Assembly (NCBI RefSeq): GCF_910596095.1
Contig: NC_056542.1
Span: 25,126,457-25,190,456 of the forward strand
Source of the DNA: Thunnus maccoyii
Taxonomy: Eukaryota > Chordata > Actinopteri > Scombriformes > Scombridae
Reading direction: 5' to 3'
Length of the DNA stretch: 64,000 nt
The position numbers and the translations under genes are program-made. The notes beneath the pieces are model-generated. The model searched no databases, was not told the origin of the DNA, and saw only the letters and a list, made by a program, of their open reading frames with translations. Positions 15,660 to 52,715 of the stretch are shown here, piece after piece (position 1 is the first letter of the stretch; each line of letters begins with the position of its first letter).

Positions 15660-33313
<17,654 letters not shown>

Positions 33314-33748
33314 CTTTTCTACAGCCCATCCAGCCTTTCAGCTGTGTAAATATACAAACATTAGTTATATTTTGGTAGAAATACACAGGCACATCTTTTT
33401 GTGCACTAACTAAATCTTTGTATTACCTCTTTTGTTTATATTTAAATAAATAATTTTCCTCTGAAATGGTGCTGTGTGCCTTTTTGTGTGCTCAAGATGA
33501 ACATCACACTACAACTGTAAGATTAGCAAATGTATGACCTTTGCCATGAATTTTAGCAAACCCTGACTCACTTGTCCACTGCAGTGATAATATCTTTGTA
33601 CTATCTTTTTAGCCACTGGGTAGTTTACACCCAGGTAATAAGTTACTCTGATATATATCTCCTGTGGTAGAAGTTGTTTTTAACCATGTGAAACTGAATG
33701 ATATAAATATATTTTTACTGCAAAACTATCATGCATCTACAAAATATT

Positions 33749-33984
33749 TAAAGTCCCCTTTCACTCAAAAATGTGTTCTGCTTATTGTTATGTCTGTATG
33801 ATATTTGAACTTCACTGTGCAGAATGATGTATGTGCAGAGCTTGACACTGGAAGGCTGTTTTCACAGCTATCTGCTGGAAGTGGAAAGTTTCTATGCGCT
33901 CATTTAAAATCAGATTTTAAGGTGTGGGCCTACAGCAGGATTTGTGACATCATAAATAGTTTGGAAGCCAATCCTGGTCAAATA
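33749..33984 (+). repeat. Dispersed repeat, copy A (forward)
   Basis: Anchors AAATGTGTTCTGCTTATTGTTA, CTTCACTGTGCAGAATGATGTA, GGAAGGCTGTTTTCAC and GTGACATCATAAATAG recur in reverse orientation at 40381-40620. The copies are clearly homologous but diverged. No terminal repeats or reading frame are seen, so the class is unknown. Confidence 0.75.
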
Positions 33985-34859
33985 TTAAATTTATACAAGT
34001 ATGATGTGGAAACTTGAAGCCTCCAGTGCACAAACACTAAGAATGGACTTTACAGTTAAGTAGGATACATCTTGTGTCCAGCAGGAGAATTTCTGAAATG
34101 AAATATATTTGCATATTTATAAATTCTTGAATTTATAATGAGGAAGGAAAAGATTTTTTAGGGATTTTAACAAGATAATTGAACTTTTAGGGGGTGGAAA
34201 AAAACAGACATTATTCAAACGAGTATTTTATACAGATTTTAAAACATGTCTGGAGGGGCTCTTTAAACTGCTTACAATTACTTAAATTAATTTTCCCACA
34301 GGTATGGTGTATAATACGGCAATAAACGGCACTGCAGTGTAGTTATTAAAAAGTAAAGTAAAAACGGTCGATATGATGAACAGAAAAGCTAAACAGCCCT
34401 AACACCAGGTGTAGTGATGCAGGGAGAGTTTGCAGAGTTGTCCTCAAGTAGCTTCATGCTGCCCTGACAGGTCATGTAAGGACATATTGGCAGACAGCCT
34501 GCTCGGGAAACGCAGAGTTTACGGCCTTCTTTACACTATGTTACGCGCCATATTTGTTTCTAGACACTGTAATAACATTTCTTTCTAGACCACAGTAACA
34601 TATTCTCCGAAAATACGTTTTTGCTTTAATTTCCTAAAAAATTTGAGAGCACACACAGCGAGAGTCGCCGAGGAATGACGTCAGGACGTATCACATAGAA
34701 TGATGACGCCGTTTGATCATTATTATTAAAAAAAAATCAGCCGTTAAAAATATCAGAGAATTAGGTCAGCAAACTAAAACAGCACCAGCGGACAGGTTAT
34801 CAATGTAACAGCTGTGCTTTTGTTCAGGTAGCTTTGTAAAAGACGTGACCGGGGCATGA

Positions 34860-37605: not shown

Positions 37606-40600
37606 ATGTCGAGCCGTCGGAAGTCAACCACACCTTGTATGGTGCTGCCCTCTGATGTGGTGGAGCAGGAGGAGGTGGAGGAGAAAATAGAAAGGACAAA
37701 GGAGGAAGAGGCGGAGGGGGAGGAGGGGAAGGTGAAGGAGGGAGTAGAGGAGGGGCCAACTGCTGAGGAGCTGGGTCAGGCGGTGGTGGTTGTCCCCACC
37801 CCACCAGACACAGGTAAGATTCTTTTTGTCCCATTCTCCCATCGCACAATCACACCTGATAAGCATGAAATAAACATCAGCTTAGTCATAAATTCACTGT
37901 AAATTTCAATTAACGTGAAGGAAATGAGAAATATCTGTCACAATGAATGTTGTATTATTATTACAGATGAGCCCAGTGTGTCCACCATAGAAGACAGTGA
38001 AGTCCTTGCTCCCTCGCTGAAGCGCAGCGCCACAAACCCTCCTGAGGATCCGAACAGTGACCAGTCGACCCAGGACCAGCAGTGTGATACCCCCGAGGAG
38101 GGAGGAGCAGACCCCGCAACTGTAGCCGCCATCTCTCTCAGCAAGACCCCCATCATGAGGATGAAGACCAAATCTGAGCCCAAGAGGATCGCCGTGTCCT
38201 TGAAATCAGCAGATGAGGTGGCGGAAGGTTTTGGAGGAGGCGGTGAGGGAGAGGTGGGAGGAGAGCAGGAACCCATCGAAGCTCCTCTGGGGCCGATGAC
38301 GCCTGTGGAGATGCTGCTGCATGACTCCATGAAGCTCGGAGGAGGCGGCTTGCTGGTCAGCCAGCCCTCGGAGCAGCAGAGGAAGTCATCCATTTTAAAC
38401 CCCACAGTTCTGCCTGCTGGCCTGGCACAGGTAGAGAGGCTCGATCGTAATGTGAAATTTCCTCAACAGAGACGTTAGATGTCAAATTCAGCTACAGAAC
38501 AGCAGCCTCGCAGCTCATAGACATTCACTGTCTTGTTCTGGGACACCTGAGCAGGACAGCAGCTTGCCAAATAGAGCTTTTGCCACAGTGTTCGTATTAA
38601 CAGTCTTTCTCATCTCTCTCCATCTCCTCCTCTATTCCAGGTGCTTTCTGCTTTTCAGGCCCAGCAGACTGCAGCAGCAGCTCAGCCCCAGCTGCTGATC
38701 CCTCTCAGTAGCATCCCGTCTTACAGTGCAGCTATGGACACCAACCCTCTGCTGGGCAGCATGTACAAGAAGTTTCCCTACCCCTCCATGGCCGAGATCA
38801 GCAGCCTGGCAGCACAGACGCAGTTCACAGAGGAGCAGATCAAGGTAGATGAAAGTGGGCTGAAGTAGGGATGGATTACCTCAGCTGACAGAGGATGTTG
38901 TGGTTTCACCCATCTGTCTGTTTGTTATAAAATATCTCAAAAAGCTACAAGTAGAAGCTCCTTACTCTGTATATTTTATTGGATAAAAAGCCCTTCAATC
39001 TTATTTTAGAATCTAAGTCTGAAGTGTACTAAAGAATCATTTCTCAATCACTTTCTCCTAATTGTTAGATACAGTCAAACATCTGTGATCTATGCCCAGG
39101 TATGGTTCTCTGCCCAGCGGCTGAAACATGGCGTCAGCTGGACTCCAGAAGAAGTGGAGGAGGCCAGGAGGAAACAGTTCAACGGCACAGTGCACACGGT
39201 GCCTCAAACCATCACTGTCATACCTGCTCACCAACTCTCAGCAGCTGCCAATGGTCTGCAGTCAATTCTTCAGACCTGCCAGATAGTGGGCCAGCCTGGC
39301 CTGGTGTTCACACAGGTAGGTAAGGAAAGAATATGTGTTATGTTTGGCAAGTATCGGCTTTGACTTGCCTCACTTTGAACCCAGTCAACTTAAAACTAGT
39401 TGACGTCGACAATAAATCAACTAGCATTGCCTGCCTTGGTTTGATTAATGACTGAAGTCAGCTTGGCTTAAATTTAAGTGACTTTTATTTAATAAACTTG
39501 ATTCGACTTGAAACAATTTGATTGACTTTGATTGTATTTATTGGACATGGACATGATTTTGACTGTCAGAATGCTAACTAGGCACAGTGCTGGAAGATAA
39601 CTCTAACTTTGATTATGGGCCCACTGATACCTGGTATTAGCATCTATTCAGTATCTGGAGACCTTATTTTGATAATGACATGCAATCCCTGGGCCGTTGC
39701 ATTTACACCTGATATTAATAAGTGTTCTCGTTATCTCGATCTTGCCTAGATTGTGGTCGGATTTAAATATGCAAAGTAGTTGGGCGGGGCAGGCTGACTT
39801 GTCAAAAAACATGGCCTGTGCATTTATGATTTACACCTCCATCAACACATGTTTTCCTTATCAAGATAAAATATTATAAGTGTAAAAAGGGTCTTAATTA
39901 TTCTGCGGTAGAGCTGGATGAAAGAAACAAATAGTTAATCACCTGCAGTGTACCAGGTAATTTAACATAGGTAATATATTGATATTTGCTATATGGTAAA
40001 AAGAAGCTTCTCTTTTGAATTTCATTTCAGTTTATTTTTAATACCAATGCTGATAATATTATTGTACATGGTAAATATTTTCATTCAACAATCTCTCAGA
40101 CCATGCCATAAATACTGGATATGTCTCTCTCTCACTCTCTCTCTCTCTTTCTCTGTCTCTGTCTCACTCTTTGTCACTCTCTCTCACACATACACACACA
40201 CACACACACACATAAAATCGCATCTACTCTCCCTCATTGAAAAATCCAGAATATTCAACTATTTTCAGTTTCAGAAGTTTAACTACTTGACACAAGATCT
40301 CTCTTTCTCCAATGTAAAGTCCATTCTCAGTGTATGTGCATTGAAGGCTTCAGGTTTCTACATGTAAGTAGCATACTTGACCACAATTGGCTTCCATACT
40401 AGTTATGATGTCACAAATCATGCTCGTAGGTGCACGCCTTAAACCCAAATTTAAGGTGAGCACAGAGAAACTTTCCTACTTTAGCAGAAAAATGTGAAAA
40501 CAGCCTTCCAGTATCCAAGTCTGTACATACATCATTCTGCACAGTGAAGCTCAAACATCCAACTAAAGTAACAATGAGCAGATTTTGAAAAACACACTTT

Positions 40601-43600
40601 GAGAGGAGGTGGACTTTAAGCTTGCCAAGAAAGTATACAGTGACACAAGTTCAGTTATGCACCTGAAGCCAGTTTTAGTTCCCTACCCATAGATTAAAGC
40701 ATTTAAAATAAAAACTACAGTTGGCCCGGTATTTGTCTGATCTACACACTCTATCTATTGTTCCTAGGTTGGCCCAGGAGGGAACCTTCCAGTTACCAGT
40801 CCCATCACCCTGACAGTGGCAGGGCTGCCCAGCCAGTCCCAGAGCTCCAGCAGAGTTTCCTGCCAGCCCACCCCGACAAACAGTGAGCTCAAACGGGCTA
40901 CCACTGTCCAGCCTCCCTCCCTCTCTCCACAGGTGGGAAAAAATCTAATTTATGCCTTTCAGACAGATTATTGTTTGATGTTGTGCTCTTGTTGCTGTCA
41001 AGAAGCAAGTTAAAGATATCTTGTGTTCAGTTTGTGCACAAAGGTAGCACATGGTGTGTCTCTCTACGCATTCAAACACAGAAAAGTTTCACATGTCTCA
41101 TCTCTAGCCATTTTGTCTTCCTCCTGGCAGGTATTTGGTACTGGCACTGTGAAACCCATGTTTAATGTATAACTCACCCCTTCTCTCTCTAAGGAGAACT
41201 CAGCCCTGAGCGCTGACACATTCAGTATGCGGCCTAAGAAGTCCAAAGAGCAGCTAGCAGAGCTGAAAGCCAGCTACCTTAAAAACCACTTTGTCAGTGA
41301 TGCCGAGATCGCCCGTTTGATGAAGCTCACCAACCTGACAAAGGGAGAAATCAAGAAATGGTTCAGTGACACGAGGTACAACCAGCGCAACTCCAAAAAC
41401 AGCCATGTCATCGTTTTCCATGACGGAGGGGGCAGAGGAGGCGGCAGCTGTAGTAGCACTGCTACCACCACCATTGTCATTGACTCAAGCGACGAGACAC
41501 CCACATCTCCTCATCCTCCCCGCACGCCTCCCGTGAAGGAGAAGGAGACGCGACCCAAAACATGGAATCCATTCCCAGACTTCACTCTGCAGAAGTTTAA
41601 GGAGAAGACGCCGGAGCAGCTGGTGGTTCTGGAGGAGAGTTTTGAGAAGAGCAGCACCCCATCAGATGAAGAATTGAGCCGCCTGAGGACAGAGACTAAA
41701 CTGACACGCAGGGAGATCGATGCCTGGTTCACCGAGAGACGAAAAATGCCATCTGTGAGCACCTCCTCCCCAGATTCTGAGGGAGGAAAGATGGAGACAG
41801 ACGGAGGAAAAGCAGGAGAAGGTGGAGGGAAAGGAGGAGTTGCCTCTTCTTCTCCCTCTGCTTCCTCTTCTCGTAAAGGCAGTCAAACTCCTCCCGGTGG
41901 GCGCAGTAAGCAGCTGCCCACCACGAGCAGTACCAACAGAGACTTAAAAGATAAGAGTAAAAAGTCTCCGGAGCAGCTTCATATTCTGAAAAGTGCCTTC
42001 GTGCGGACCCAGTGGCCCACTCCAGAGGAGTACGACCAGCTGGCAGAGGAGAGCGGCCTTACTCGGTCCTACATTGTCAGCTGGTTTGGGGACTCTCGGT
42101 ACTCCTGGAAAAACGGGAACCTGAAATGGTTCTTCCAGTACCAAAGCGGCAATGTCGAGGGGCCAAATGGTGGAGGAGGCAATAAAATAGGAAGCAGCGG
42201 CGCTCGAAAAAGACGGGGCCGTAATCGTGGTTGGGGGCGGTCCCGAACCCGGAAGCAGCCAAGGAGGTCTGCCTCCTCCTGTGCAGATGTAGACAAATCT
42301 CCCCTGTCGAAGAAATTCAAGACTGGGCGTGAGTTCCTGAAGGAGTACTACCTGAAGCACCGCTTTCTCAATGAGCAGGACCTGGATGAGCTTGTCACTA
42401 AGACCAACATGAGCTATGAACAGGTAATGGAATTATTTTTATCCACATGTGAGAAAAAACATATACATATATCATTGTGTCATGTTACAATCCACGACTC
42501 AAAAGCTTATAAGGGCGAAGAAGTAAAATCCATTTAACGTACCTTCTATGTTTCCCAAAAGCATCGTAACTAGCAAGTTGGCTGCAGGAGTAACCTCAAA
42601 CTACATTTTCATTCAAGTTTATATTGTTAACCTTTAAGTTTAACCGTTATCATGACCAACGAAGCTCTCTGTGAAGTGACTTGGATGAATAAATAAAACC
42701 CACACAGGAACAATTGATTTGTGCAGTTTATCTGCCACTTTCTGCTGGAACCATCCTCCTCTCCCTCTTTTTAGCTAATACACCGTTCTGGCCTGAAATG
42801 CCAATTTCTTAATGCCTTGATGCCTTTATTTGATAGTACTTGTGGAAAGATGACAAGAAACACAAACCGGAGACGTTCATGGTTGGGGTCTGAATCCCTG
42901 AACCTCCCATGAAACTAATGCTTGATTTTAAGTTAAATTTGTGCTTAAGAGTAACATCTGCCTCGAACAGCAGTTAAATTGATAAAAGTTTACTTTCTTA
43001 CGCTTACTTCCACACAGTTTTCCATAACATTTCTGCTTTGTGATTCATGTATTTTTTTGAGATGTTGAACAGCTTACAGATAGAACATGTGTTCAGCAGT
43101 CTTTTCAGCGCCAACAAAAGTCGACAATAAGAAGCCCTTAACGCTATGCAAGTGCACTCGCTCTTAAGTGTTACTTTGGAAAATGTGTAAGAGTGTTTGC
43201 AAATAGGTTCTTAGAAGCTGGACCCAGGAGTGTAACTAGGATTTTAGAAATGCTGAGTGCAAATTCCCCTAGTAGAACCTCACCCACCCAACAAAATTTC
43301 ACATTTTATGTGTTTAACCATTCATTCATCTCCCTGCATTATGGTCTAAATGTTGTGTCAAAGTCATCTCTACAATGTCAGGTGTGTACTTCAGGTGGCA
43401 AAAACATTTTTTGCCTAATCAAAACCTTTTAATTTTAAGACATTTAGTCCAAACAATGTCAGAATTTGCCCCAAAGAATCCATGAAGTATATATGTGTGT
43501 AATCGTAGAATGTAAACTCATCTTCATGTCATTAAAACCACGAAATATTACAAAGGACGTGACCTTGGTGTCCTCAGTGGCAGCTACAGCCCTGCTGTCA

Positions 43601-43920
43601 ACACGTAGTTAAGGTGTCTCTCTCTCTTTAATAAGGTGAGGGAGTGGTTTGCCGAGGTCCAGCGACGCTTGGACATGGGGTCAGATCCCTTCCTGGAGCC
43701 GACTGTAGGGAGGACGGACGGAGAGGAGGGAGGTGAGGAGGAGAGAGAGGAGACGCAGGGAGAGGCGTCGACGGCCACCGAGGAACAGACCGGCACCGGG
43801 ATGGGAGATGAGGATGATGACGAAGAAGATGAGGAGAATGACGGCGATGATACAGATGACAGTGAGGTTTGGGAGCCGTCACGCAGCGTCAGGAAATCCT
43901 TGTCGGTATCTGAAGACTAG
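37606..43920 (+). CDS. zhx1: ZHX1, zinc-fingers-and-homeoboxes family protein lacking the zinc fingers
   Basis: Seven coding exons: 37606-37813, 37967-38430, 38641-38844, 39100-39315, 40768-40932, 41194-42423 and 43636-43920; 2772 nt, 923 aa (human 873). The start [13 protein letters not shown], then [10 protein letters not shown] and [16 protein letters not shown], identify ZHX1. Five homeodomains are visible: about 265-320, 435-492, 556-604, 675-730 and 796-850, each with its WF core ([35 protein letters not shown]). An Arg/Gly-rich basic patch (752-778) lies between the fourth and fifth, and the C-terminus is acidic. The two N-terminal C2H2 fingers of mammalian ZHX1 are absent: exons 1 and 2 hold no C-x2-C/H-x3-5-H pattern, and the 153-bp intron between them has none. 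ZHX proteins are nuclear dimeric repressors that bind NF-YA in mammals. It follows atad2, as in human. Confidence 0.93.
40178..40212. repeat. (CT)n/(CA)n compound microsatellite in zhx1 intron 4
   Basis: A CT/TC-rich run from about 40123 passes into ACACACAC to 40212. Confidence 0.9.
40381..40620 (-). repeat. Dispersed repeat, copy B (inverted relative to copy A)
   Basis: This is the reverse complement of the repeat at 33749-33984: it contains TACATCATTCTGCACAGTGAAG, GTGAAAACAGCCTTCCAG, TATGATGTCAC and ATTGGCTTCCATAC. It lies in zhx1 intron 4. Confidence 0.75.
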
Positions 43921-46900
43921 TGAATGTGGAAAGCGCAGAATGTTACACGAGAAATACTGTTGTGATTAATGCTGGAAGAGCTGTAACAGTTAGCTGAACC
44001 AAGTCTTTGTTGCCACTGATTTGCATGTGTACTCATCTGTAACATTAATTCACTTTATTTTTAATATTTCTAAATCATGTCTACATGAGAATAACAGATG
44101 GATTATTAGCTTCAGCTCCCTGTCTAAATACTTACCTAACTGACGGTATGTAAGGTGTAACATTTGAGAAGGAATCATGGTAAAAAGGGAGTTTTTAGCA
44201 ACCCCTGCGAATCATAAATTACACATCAAACATAAACAAAATAGCAGTTCACCATATTTTGTCAAAAGGAATACCATGAAGTGCAGTCCTCATCCACACA
44301 CATCCATACATCCTTCTTTAGAAGCAATTGATGAATGCTGACTGTTGTTAAGGGGAGACCTTTCGGAGGAATTGACAGTTTACATGTCCGCCAAGCCCCT
44401 TGTTAAATTTGCACTCATTTTTCACACAGTGATGCTGCATTTCCTTGAGAAAAAAGTGTTTGTTAAATGTATGTTGTTGTGAGCAAAGGCCTAAATTCAA
44501 ACTCATATCTCCAACGTTACAAACGTTTCATCCCTGCTCCCAAACTGAAAAAGTGATCACAGGAAGATGTCACTGCCGAGCGACGTCCCCAGTGAAACAC
44601 TTTGTCCACGTCTAGCGTACATCTGTTGTGGAACTGTTTTTTTCTAGCACCTGTGAAGATCATCACAGTTGTTGAAAGCCACATTCACCCAACAGGTTGT
44701 TTGAGCTGACATGGATGCATAATGACGTTGAAAGTTTTTATCTCTGAGATAAACTGTGATATAAGACAAAGTACCTTAATGCAGAATGAATGCCAATGAT
44801 GTGATACTTTTAAATAACGCAGGATGTCTACTCAAGTCTTCCCTTCATAGCCTACAAATGAAACACCTACAAATGAAAAAAACTGATGGAAAAAGTCCAC
44901 GGTATGTGTTAAATATGCACTGAAAGTGATGTTTTTAAACCAATTTCACACCTTTTTGATAGAACACATCCTGTGTTATTGTCACCTTTTTAAAGGAGGT
45001 TATGTAGATTCAGACAGTTTGAGACTGTTGTGCCAAAGTTGAATGTGTTGTCTCCTGAGCAGTGAGCTACAGTCTGAGGCAGAGGCGCCGTTCGTGAACT
45101 TAATAATGGCCACTGTGAGGCAGACTTCGGTCCACTGAAACGATAACAGAGAAAGAAATACAGTATTTCGCCGCAGTGATTTTGCTTCAAATGTGCTCTT
45201 GGTGGGCTTCTGATGGGTTGAATGGATGAATTTAATTATGGGGAAGCAACAATAGAGTTTTCCCCAAACCATGTAAATGCTACTGTAAGCACCAGCTGCA
45301 GCTCCGATGTAAATTTAGAGCAAATCAATCCACAAGTTCATTACCAAATCACCAACACCTTGCCTTCAGGCTCAGTGGAACCCAACAGTTCATGTAAAAA
45401 CTGAGGCCTGTGAATCATTTTGGGTCCTGACCTGTACTTAAAGAAACGCTGTTAAACAGTATTTCAAATATTTCAATGATTTGACTCCAGTCTGCACTGA
45501 AGAGAAAAATCGTGAAGCACCTAAACTAAACTTTTTTTTAAAAAAATGCACTTTGTCCACTACATGGTGGACTGATTAGGCACCTTAATCTCTTATTATA
45601 CCCTTAAATGGCTCTGAGAGACCAAATCTGTTTTATATGACTACAAACTGAACCAGTATTTTGCCTTTTTTAAAATCCTTAGTGTGTTTTCAGGAGGAGG
45701 AATCTTACCAGTTTATCCACTTTTCTAATAATGTCTTGTTCGAGAGTTGGATGTTTATATGGCTCGAAAAAACAGAACAATCACCCACCGCTTTCTTTTG
45801 CTAAATTGCACAATTTGAGCCCCATTTTTAATCTCTTCTCCTTTTGAAAATGCGCATGTGTTATGTTTTGTATTGTTGCTTTAAATCATGGTCTCCCATC
45901 TCTTCTTCTCTGCTTCCACATGATCCTGTTTGATTCTTCCCCTCTCCTCCAGTCCACTGTTGTAAAATGAATGCCTAGATTCATGATGTGCACTTCCCAA
46001 GACATGTTTCTGTGTCCTGTTGGTTTCTCTGTCTCAAGCAGACAGACAGAGCTATAAGGACATCTTCAAAAGACTGAAACTATATGTGTTCAGACAGTCT
46101 TTGGATATTTAGCTTCCTGTCGTTGAAGGAATTGTTGTGATGCCTGAAGAAACAGCACAGCATTCCCTCTGTGGTGGGAAGTCTACCAAATAACGTTCCT
46201 CTTTCCAACTGTTCTCTTCACGCTTTACCGCATTAAGATGGCAAGGACAAAACTGTCTCAACTACAGTTCCTCACCGATAGGAGACTTTGATGAAGCTTT
46301 GCAGATAAACCTATGTGCCTACATGGCTCGTACACTTGTTTGAACAGAATTTCACCAACTCTTGACAGATAATGACGAGAGAGAATATGTGAAAGCTTTG
46401 GAAATCACATACTGTCGAGTGATTCTTAAGGAAGGCTTGTTCAAACCAAGTTGTGACGCATGACCGAGCTCTGCTTTCCGCTGATGCTAAAAGATACTTA
46501 GATACTCTGAAGTTGACATTGGAAACTTCTGTTCTAAGTCCTCAAACAAATACCTTGGTGTTTCGAATTTTATTGTATTTTGTCACCAGGCACTTGTCAC
46601 AGTACATGTTGGCATCTTTAGCTATCTGAAAGAGCAGTTTCAGTTACCATCTTTGAAACAAATATTGTCTGCTAGCTGTAAGCTAACTAAGCAAGCTAGT
46701 TGATAGCAACTGAAGGAGAGCTGAAACCTTTACACATTTTGCCGTAACGTGACATATGCCTGGCCATGAAAAATAACAAATTCAAAGATATTAAGGTATA
46801 CCTTTTGTCTAATACTGCATGCAATAACCAAGACGAACAACTGCTCATTTTGTACATACAATATTTGGGTTGGTATACTAGTTGCCTAATCTGGGCTAAA

Positions 46901-49760: not shown

Positions 49761-52715
49761 ATGCTGTGGAATCTATTTTTCATCTCTCTGATCTCTCTAG
49801 GTAAGTGGGTCATTTTATGCATGTGCACGTCTGTCCCTGCCTGACATTGTGATCTATTAAAAGATTGATTTTGATTTAATTTTGTCATCCTGTTTTTCCC
49901 ATATACTACTTTTGCTATCTTGGTCTATTCTGACAAAATCTATTGTATGTCTGTCTGTCCTGGAAGAGGAATCCCTCCTTGGTCGCTCTTCCTGTGGTTT
50001 CTTCCATTTTTTCCCCATGAGTTGAATTTTTCCTTATTTGAATTGAGGGTAAAACAGAGGAGAGATAGAGGATGTTGGATGCTGTACAGATTGTAAAGCC
50101 CCTTGAGACAAATTTGATTTCTGACATTGGGCTATATAAATAAAATCAAGTTGAGTCAAACTTGATTGATTGAGATGTAGAACACATCCACAAAAATGTG
50201 AATCATGGATAAAATAATAAAAAGTATATAATACTATTACTTACTGTATTTTGCTCCTCACTCCCCAGTCAAGTTCTCACTCAAATTCCATATAAGCTAC
50301 TAATTATTGATGGATGGGTAACAGAAAATTAAAATAATTACACCATACCAGTTTTTGCATGTTCTAATGAATTCAGTACAAATCTTGAATACTTAACATT
50401 ACTGCCTGTTGCCCACATTTTCCACATAGTGTTGTAGATATATGAATATATTGTTTATACCTTCCTGTTATTTTTGATTCATCTCAACACAGTATGAGAA
50501 TAAACTTGTAGAAACCTTATAATAATCCATCACGTCAACTTTTATTCTGTTATGTTGTTGAGTGTTAACGCAGTACAGACTTTTCAGAGTATTGTGTGCA
50601 TTCATCAGACAATTCTTCCTGACTATAAAATTAAAAACGGGAAATTTTATGTAATCCTTTGGGGTTTTTTTTTACATTTCACAGGAAGGTTACACTTACA
50701 TGCAACAGGTAGGACTAAGTGCTTTCAAAATGTTTAAATTATTCATAACTTTCATTTGTCTTTCAAAGGCATAAATAGATATTTCTACGCTAAATATGTA
50801 AGAGACAATATTTTGAATTGAATTGTTCTGCAATATTTTTCTGTTTTCAGCTATAGATACCTGCAACACACAAAATGAGATCCCGTTAAGAGAACTTAAC
50901 ACCTCTCAGTCATCAAACTACGCCGATACGAGTGGAGTCCCATACGTTTCTGGAAGAGCTATTGATGAGCATAAGAAAAAGTGTTCTCACACAATCAAAG
51001 AGGACAATTCCTGGTGGACAATTGACCTGGATCGTGTCTACAACATTTCCTGTATTTCTATCTACAACATACAACAAAAAAATATTGTTATGAATGATGT
51101 TCAGATCCGCATCGGGAACTCGTCGGTGAAAAACGGCACTGAAAACAAAGTGTAATACCTTCATATTATTTTGAATTGCTTTATTTCACATTTTCAAGCT
51201 TCAGCATGTCTAATATTTTTTAGAATTTTTAGAATCGACAAATAAATTAGAAGACGGTTTTGCTCATAATACACTTAGATTTTCATGCTCCCTGTGACAT
51301 TTCTAACTCAGCTCCAATGTCAAGGTGTCTGTAGAACAGACACAGGCATCCTCTCAGAACCACAAACATCACACTTCCCATCCTTTCTTCCCCTCTCTGA
51401 ATTTCTGTCTGTCCATTTTTTTTCTTTCTTCCAGGAGGAAAAACATCACATCCTTCGAATTAGACGTGTACAATTGCTTTAAATTTGATCCAGCCGTGTC
51501 GGGGCGCTACGTCACTCTGTACTCTCCAAAAACAAACCATGTAGTCCTGTGTGAAGTGAAGATCTACGAAGCCACAGGTACAATAAATGTTCTGTTACGC
51601 AAAGTGAATTGTTTATTCAGCGCAGTGCTCACATACAGTAACAGACTGAGAGCTGCAGAAGAGTTAATACTTTACTGTAATATCTCCTTCACAGTTAAAT
51701 GTGGACAAAAAGCATATTAATGCAATAGCAGAAACCTCCTTAAACTATATGCTCAGAAGAATTGAAATTGACGCCTGTAAATTGAGATTGACAATGTTGA
51801 AGCTAATCATGGCAAAGGTTCTCATTTTTCTGAATTGCGATGGCCACAGGGCTGAAGTATCAAACCACAATAAAATCATTTGATATTTCTAGTTATGTCA
51901 CTCCACAAACTTCAGGCGGTTCTACAAGGCAACTGACAGGCTCTGCTGTAATTCACAAATTATGTCACTTGGAGTCATTTTTATATGCAGTTGCAGAACA
52001 ACAACAGGTAGTAGGGAACTGTGTTTTCTCAGATATTCTCTTTCAGAGAAATCTTCCTATTTCATAACCTGTTATTATCTATTATCTTTGTTTTATATTA
52101 TGAGACTTACAAAGAGTAAGCATTGAAGTGAATAACAGCTGGAAGACTTAGTGAGTAGTCTACATCTTGAGGATGATGCCATCATCACAGAAAGTATTGT
52201 TTCTCCTAGGTGACTCAGTTCATTTGTTGGAACACACAGTTTGGATATTTTCACGTATTTGTTTTCATTTCAACTGAAACATTTCACGCTGTTTTTGTTT
52301 TCCTGGGGTTTTTTGTTTGTTTGTTGTTGGGTTGTTGTTTTTTTTCGTTTGTTTGTTTGTTTTTATAGATTCAAACTTTAGGCTGGTCGAGGAGAGCATG
52401 ACGTGGGAAGATGCTCTGTACTACTGCAGGGATCGTCACAAGGACCTGGCTTCCATCCTTAACAACGAAACCCAGACTGAGTTGGCTAAGTTGGCCAAGA
52501 ACGCAACCACAGACTTCGTGTGGTTGGGCCTTCGCTACACCTGCACCCTGAATTTCTGGTTCTGGGTCGATGATAACCGCTTAGACTTCGAACACTGGAA
52601 TGAAAATGATAAAACAGAAGAATGTGACATGAGTGCTGCCATGGCGAAATCAGGGAACCAAAACTGGTTCAGCAAGCCTGACTACGAAACGTATAATTTC
52701 ATCTGTGCAAAGTAA
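49761..52715 (+). CDS. Secreted chimeric lectin: F-type (fucolectin-like) domain plus C-type lectin domain
   Basis: Five coding exons (49761-49800, 50685-50708, 50851-51151, 51435-51577, 52369-52715); 855 nt, 284 aa. Residues 1-20 form a signal peptide (MLWNLFFISLISLG). Residues 26-168 fit the F-type lectin fold: QSSNY, RAIDEH, CSHTIKEDNSWWTIDL, IRIGNSS, SGRYVTLYSP and VLCEVKIYEA. The fucose-binding His is kept (H68), but the usual Arg-x-Asp-x4-Arg/Lys is replaced around 95-102. Residues 172-284 are a C-type lectin domain: WEDALYYC, VWLGLRYTC, FWFWVD, EECDMSAAM and NFICAK. Neither the EPN/QPD nor the WND calcium-sugar motif is present. About six N-glycosylation sequons occur. It is probably a soluble recognition protein of innate immunity. 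The polyadenylation signal is at 53445-53450. The domain calls are firm; the ligand is unknown. Confidence 0.87.
49915..50165 (+). mobile_element. LINE 3'-end fragment (Rex/Babar-like) in lectin intron 1
   Basis: The sequence contains GTCTGTCTGTCCTGGAAGAG, TCCCTCCTTGGTCGCTCTTCC, TGGTTTCTTCCATTTTTTCC, TACAGATTGTAAAGCCCCTTGAG and GGGCTATATAAATAAAAT, followed by a degenerate TTGAG/TTGAT tail. This order is typical of the 3' UTR and tail of fish Rex-type non-LTR retrotransposons. No reverse transcriptase is present, so it is a 5'-truncated copy. Confidence 0.65.

Follow-up and report, generated by a model that had tools for sequence, protein, structure and literature searches.

The ZHX1 orthologue of Thunnus maccoyii, as read from a 64-kb stretch of DNA (the window), has likely undergone a true loss of its tandem C2H2 zinc-finger domain, while its N-terminal motif and its homeodomains were kept. 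The zhx1-like gene lies at 37606-43920 on the plus strand and comprises seven coding exons, which encode a product of 923 residues with five homeodomains; exon placement follows from open frames joined at consensus splice sites, hence the gene structure is a prediction. All six introns run from GT to AG, with intron 1 in phase 1 and the other five in phase 0, and the features are as follows:

37606-37813, plus strand: coding exon 1 (residues 1-69 plus one base), 14-residue N-terminal motif and behind it an acidic linker rich in Glu
37615-37635, plus strand: RRKSTTP (residues 4-10), similar to RRKQxxP, the N-terminal NuRD interaction motif
37814-37966, plus strand: intron 1, 153 bp, GT-AG, phase 1, within the interval that the fingers occupy in mammalian ZHX1
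37967-38430, plus strand: coding exon 2, in order the remainder of the linker, SKTPIM..KRIAV, and a stretch rich in Gly and Glu
38641-38844, plus strand: coding exon 3, homeodomain 1 up to its position 46
39100-39315, plus strand: coding exon 4, remainder of homeodomain 1 plus the conserved block behind it
40768-40932, plus strand: coding exon 5, linker that connects homeodomain 1 to homeodomain 2
41194-42423, plus strand: coding exon 6, homeodomains 2-4 and homeodomain 5 up to its position 44
43636-43920, plus strand: coding exon 7, remainder of homeodomain 5 and the acidic C-terminus, with the stop codon at 43918-43920

Pfam assigns five homeodomain stretches to the 923-residue product, in agreement with the sequence-only reading, which had placed five homeodomains downstream of the conserved blocks, and a Homez-type match covers homeodomain 5. 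Individual homeodomains were assigned by phmmer against the PDB using pairwise scores, and together with the matches of homeodomains 2-4 to ZHX1, the five Pfam stretches correspond to the about five ZHX-type homeodomains that characterize the family. Homeodomain 4 reaches 113.7 bits with human ZHX1 (3nar) versus 58.8 with HOMEZ (2ecc), and no ZHX2 or ZHX3 homeodomain 4 is present among its nine PDB matches; homeodomain 2 scores 94.2 bits with ZHX1 (2ly9) versus 51.2 with ZHX2 and 46.5 with ZHX3; and homeodomain 3 scores 75.7 bits with ZHX1 (2ecb), narrowly above ZHX2 (72.8), with ZHX3 at 60.6. These PDB scores place the product nearer to ZHX1 than to any of ZHX2, ZHX3 and HOMEZ, clearly so for homeodomains 2 and 4 and narrowly for homeodomain 3, and its homeodomains are not closest to HOMEZ. 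Over the aligned stretches, 48/67, 42/65 and 51/66 residues of homeodomains 2, 3 and 4, respectively, are identical to human ZHX1. Homeodomain 1 and the block that follows are nearly identical to human ZHX1, and the first 17 residues and the SKTPIM..KRIAV block are conserved with the mammalian protein, as had been proposed.

The neighborhood of the gene points in the same direction, as ATAD2 is the best PDB match for three stretches (23075-23512, 29820-30083, and 30674-30967), all of which lie upstream of zhx1 on the same strand, with ATAD2B being next-best for the two bromodomain pieces. In Atlantic salmon, the arrangement ATAD2-ZHX1-ZHX2 has been described, with the orientation as in human (PMC2846915). 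When ten neighboring stretches were compared with Pfam, four contained a family above the cut-off (AAA, C-type lectin, DUF5588, and SACK1), one (988-1404) had only weak matches below the cut-off, and five, including 30674-30967, had none. Downstream of zhx1 are a DUF5588 stretch, which we take to be C8orf76, and a FAM83-type SACK1 stretch on the minus strand; a C-type lectin domain (PF00059, E 6.1e-13) is located at 52278-52712, between zhx1 and the DUF5588 stretch. No second zhx gene was found in the 64-kb window at E 1e-3. On the basis of these sequence comparisons, the gene is probably the orthologue of ZHX1.

Neither zf_C2H2_ZHX (PF18387) nor any other C2H2 family was detected by Pfam in the product, and the two N-terminal C2H2 fingers are thus missing from the ZHX1 orthologue as assembled. 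The human ZHX1 finger domain (PDB 2ghf), which in human lies between the N-terminal motif and SKTPIM, served as the query for the window; by tblastn, its best match had an E of 0.32 and lies outside zhx1 (46774-46875, minus strand), and by phmmer, the best E was 2.6 among 2824 six-frame stretches, each at least 15 aa long. In a positive control for tblastn, degraded fingers placed in intron 1 were detected in 20/20 cases in each of eight settings with E below 0.01, namely at 70, 60, 50, or 40% identity and either whole or split over two exons, the degradation consisting of random residue substitutions from one human parent with no insertions or deletions modeled. As homeodomains 2-4 have retained 65 to 77% identity, similarly constrained fingers would be expected to show up, and a hidden finger exon in the window is ruled out by tblastn and phmmer in combination with this control. 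A loose C2H2 pattern scan of the window in all six frames returned 24 matches, none of which lies between exons 1 and 2; a single match falls inside zhx1 (41665-41943, on the opposite strand of exon 6), and none of the 24 was judged by eye to resemble a ZHX finger. The central proposal of the sequence-only reading, namely a ZHX1 orthologue that encodes no C2H2 fingers as assembled, is therefore upheld by the homeodomain scores, the ATAD2 neighbor, Pfam, the tblastn and phmmer searches, and the control. Searches among openly licensed papers brought up no description of a fingerless ZHX1, which does not show that it is unpublished. Relatives were found neither in viral contigs (4 and 16 pattern matches) nor in the prokaryotic collection genome_contigs (205 pattern matches), these collections being not vertebrate-directed and silent on fish.

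The residues between the N-terminal motif and SKTPIM (18-128) contain a single Cys (C109) and lack His altogether, and Glu makes up 21% and Gly 6% of them; the interval had been described as Glu/Gly-rich, of which the Glu-rich part holds, whereas the clearly Gly-rich stretch sits behind KRIAV. From CMVL to SKTPIM, the interval measures 113 residues here versus 164 in human ZHX1. When the three forward frames of intron 1 were compared with the fingers, the score of 21 was reached by 397/500 shuffles, and a decayed finger exon in intron 1 is hence unsupported; likewise, the linker as degenerate fingers is unsupported, as 249/500 shuffles score equally high. Together with the absence of any C2H2 scan match between exons 1 and 2, the shuffles agree with the earlier statement that the 153-bp intron has no Cys/His pattern. 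The G+C content by codon position is 0.81/0.33/0.71 in exon 1 versus 0.29/0.35/0.31 in intron 1, and due to such differences the linker reads as coding. Exon 1 contains GGA-rich low-complexity repeats, and the linker is short. Elsewhere in the gene, part of intron 4 (its positions 935-1304; region 40250-40619) shares 76% identity, across 382 aligned positions, with the opposite strand of 33748-34117, which is probably a dispersed repeat.

Two features count against a real loss, as intron 1 is located in the finger interval, so that the sequence would look identical if the assembly had dropped a symmetric phase-1 finger exon, and the short GGA-rich linker has a composition that can trouble assembly. 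Both fit an assembly artefact, in which a finger cassette exon with flanking phase-1 introns was dropped from intron 1 in the assembly or in the haplotype. We regard this as unlikely, however, given that there is no N in the window, that intron 1, at 153 bp, is complete from GT to AG and shows no partial finger trace, and that both breakpoints must be intronic, with the splice sites undisturbed. It is more doubtful still that labor has been divided, with a duplicate zhx1, or zhx2 or zhx3, keeping the fingers elsewhere and freeing this copy to lose them; teleosts have a whole-genome duplication in their ancestry, which favors this explanation, but a second zhx gene is absent within the 64-kb window. 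Such a division of labor is in any case a version of real loss and not its exclusion.

There is little chance that the orthology is wrong and that the gene is of the HOMEZ type or of the ZHX2/ZHX3 type, for which no finger loss from ZHX1 would be needed. The Pfam Homez model does match homeodomain 5, the margin of ZHX1 over ZHX2 at homeodomain 3 is narrow, and HOMEZ is described as having no fingers (PMC2211742), but the scores of homeodomain 4 against HOMEZ and of homeodomain 2 against ZHX2 and ZHX3 are far below those for ZHX1, and ATAD2 adjoins zhx1. Fingers that reside on an exon beyond the searched stretch, or that are highly divergent, are to be expected least of all: DNA alone cannot reveal alternative transcripts, yet the window search was negative under conditions in which even split fingers of 40% identity were detected in 20/20 cases.

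Real loss of the finger pair thus remains the best explanation, as the product has five homeodomains and no Pfam finger family, its PDB matches favor ZHX1, and ATAD2 is located upstream; as the search for fingers was negative over the whole window with a functional positive control, and no trace was found in intron 1 or the linker; and as the linker reads as coding, the N-terminus and SKTPIM..KRIAV are kept, and the window has no N. With human and mammalian ZHX1, the orthologue shares the N-terminal motif, SKTPIM..KRIAV, the five homeodomains, the acidic C-terminus, and the ATAD2 neighbor, but it has no C2H2 pair. The family architecture is also shared with ZHX2 and ZHX3, both of which, however, carry the finger pair and give lower homeodomain scores than ZHX1. 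HOMEZ, in contrast, is not known to carry the ZHX N-terminal motif, and homeodomains 2-4 of the present gene are closer to ZHX1. It nonetheless has ZHX-family homeodomains without zinc fingers, and with HOMEZ already known as a fingerless member, fingerlessness is not new to the ZHX/HOMEZ family (PMC2211742).

A further difference concerns the coding region, which is cut by six predicted introns here, whereas mammalian ZHX1 has one coding exon. Intron 3 splits homeodomain 1 at 46/47 and intron 6 splits homeodomain 5 at 44/45, the numbering being set by W48 in both cases, and the joined exons read (C/A)AG|GT at four of the six junctions (introns 2, 3, 4, and 6), which is the proto-splice pattern. 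The introns were either gained at proto-splice-type sites, or they are old ones that were kept here and lost in mammals. Human ZHX2 is likewise described as having a sole coding exon (PMC9718504), and both homeobox intron positions were already known, 46/47 from many PRD-class genes and 44/45 from NANOG (PMC2211742).

The conserved flanks stay in frame in one predicted transcript, bridged by the acidic low-complexity linker, and the ZHX1 orthologue would most likely still act as a ZHX-type transcriptional co-repressor, from which whatever the finger pair contributes would be missing. ZHX proteins dimerize via the region of homeodomain 1, and ZHX1 was discovered through its interaction with NF-YA (PMC2893186). 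In human ZHX2, both functions map outside the fingers, with dimerization assigned to residues 195-358 and NF-YA binding to residues 263-497, in a review that counts four homeodomains and not the original five (PMC9718504). The region that matches these segments is kept in the ZHX1 orthologue, and by extension from the mammalian work, dimerization and NF-YA binding would proceed via the region of homeodomains 1 and 2.

The N-terminal RRKSTTP retains R, R, K, and P of RRKQxxP, with Q replaced by S. In FOG-1, SALL1, SALL4, BCL11A, and ZNF827, RRKxxxP is likewise found at the extreme N-terminus, but these NuRD-motif proteins have Gln at the fourth position, where the ZHX1 orthologue has Ser (PMC11602157). 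For the motif of ZNF512B, the second R, the K, and the P are reported to be essential, while the first R is dispensable and the Q is partly required; the main text of that paper does not mention ZHX (PMC11602157). Our literature search returned no paper on ZHX with RBBP4 and RRKQ, nor on the letters RRKSTTP. By its resemblance to the motif, RRKSTTP may recruit RBBP4/NuRD and thus serve the orthologue as a predicted docking site for a co-repressor, and an RRKSTTP-type NuRD motif may extend to the whole ZHX family. According to a review, the activity of ZHX2 is regulated through methylation of its N-terminus by NRMT1 (PMC9718504), hence in one family member at least, this end serves a function in its own right. 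The earlier designation of the protein as a homeodomain-only regulator omits the kept N-terminal motif with its resemblance to a co-repressor docking site.

To our knowledge, what the ZHX finger pair does has not been clarified, despite the solved structure 2ghf. An orthologue that lost just the finger domain and kept the rest would represent a natural domain-deletion experiment, and such a deletion would point to the conserved N-terminus as a part of importance for repression. It would also follow that the name "zinc fingers and homeoboxes" should not be trusted in fish genes without a check. It is conceivable, although we hold this only tentatively, that a fish lineage converted ZHX1 from a finger-plus-homeodomain to an N-terminal-motif-plus-homeodomain co-repressor. 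If this is true, the finger pair would be dispensable for the conserved core role of ZHX1, in contrast to RRKSTTP at the start of the protein, which is probably a NuRD docking site.
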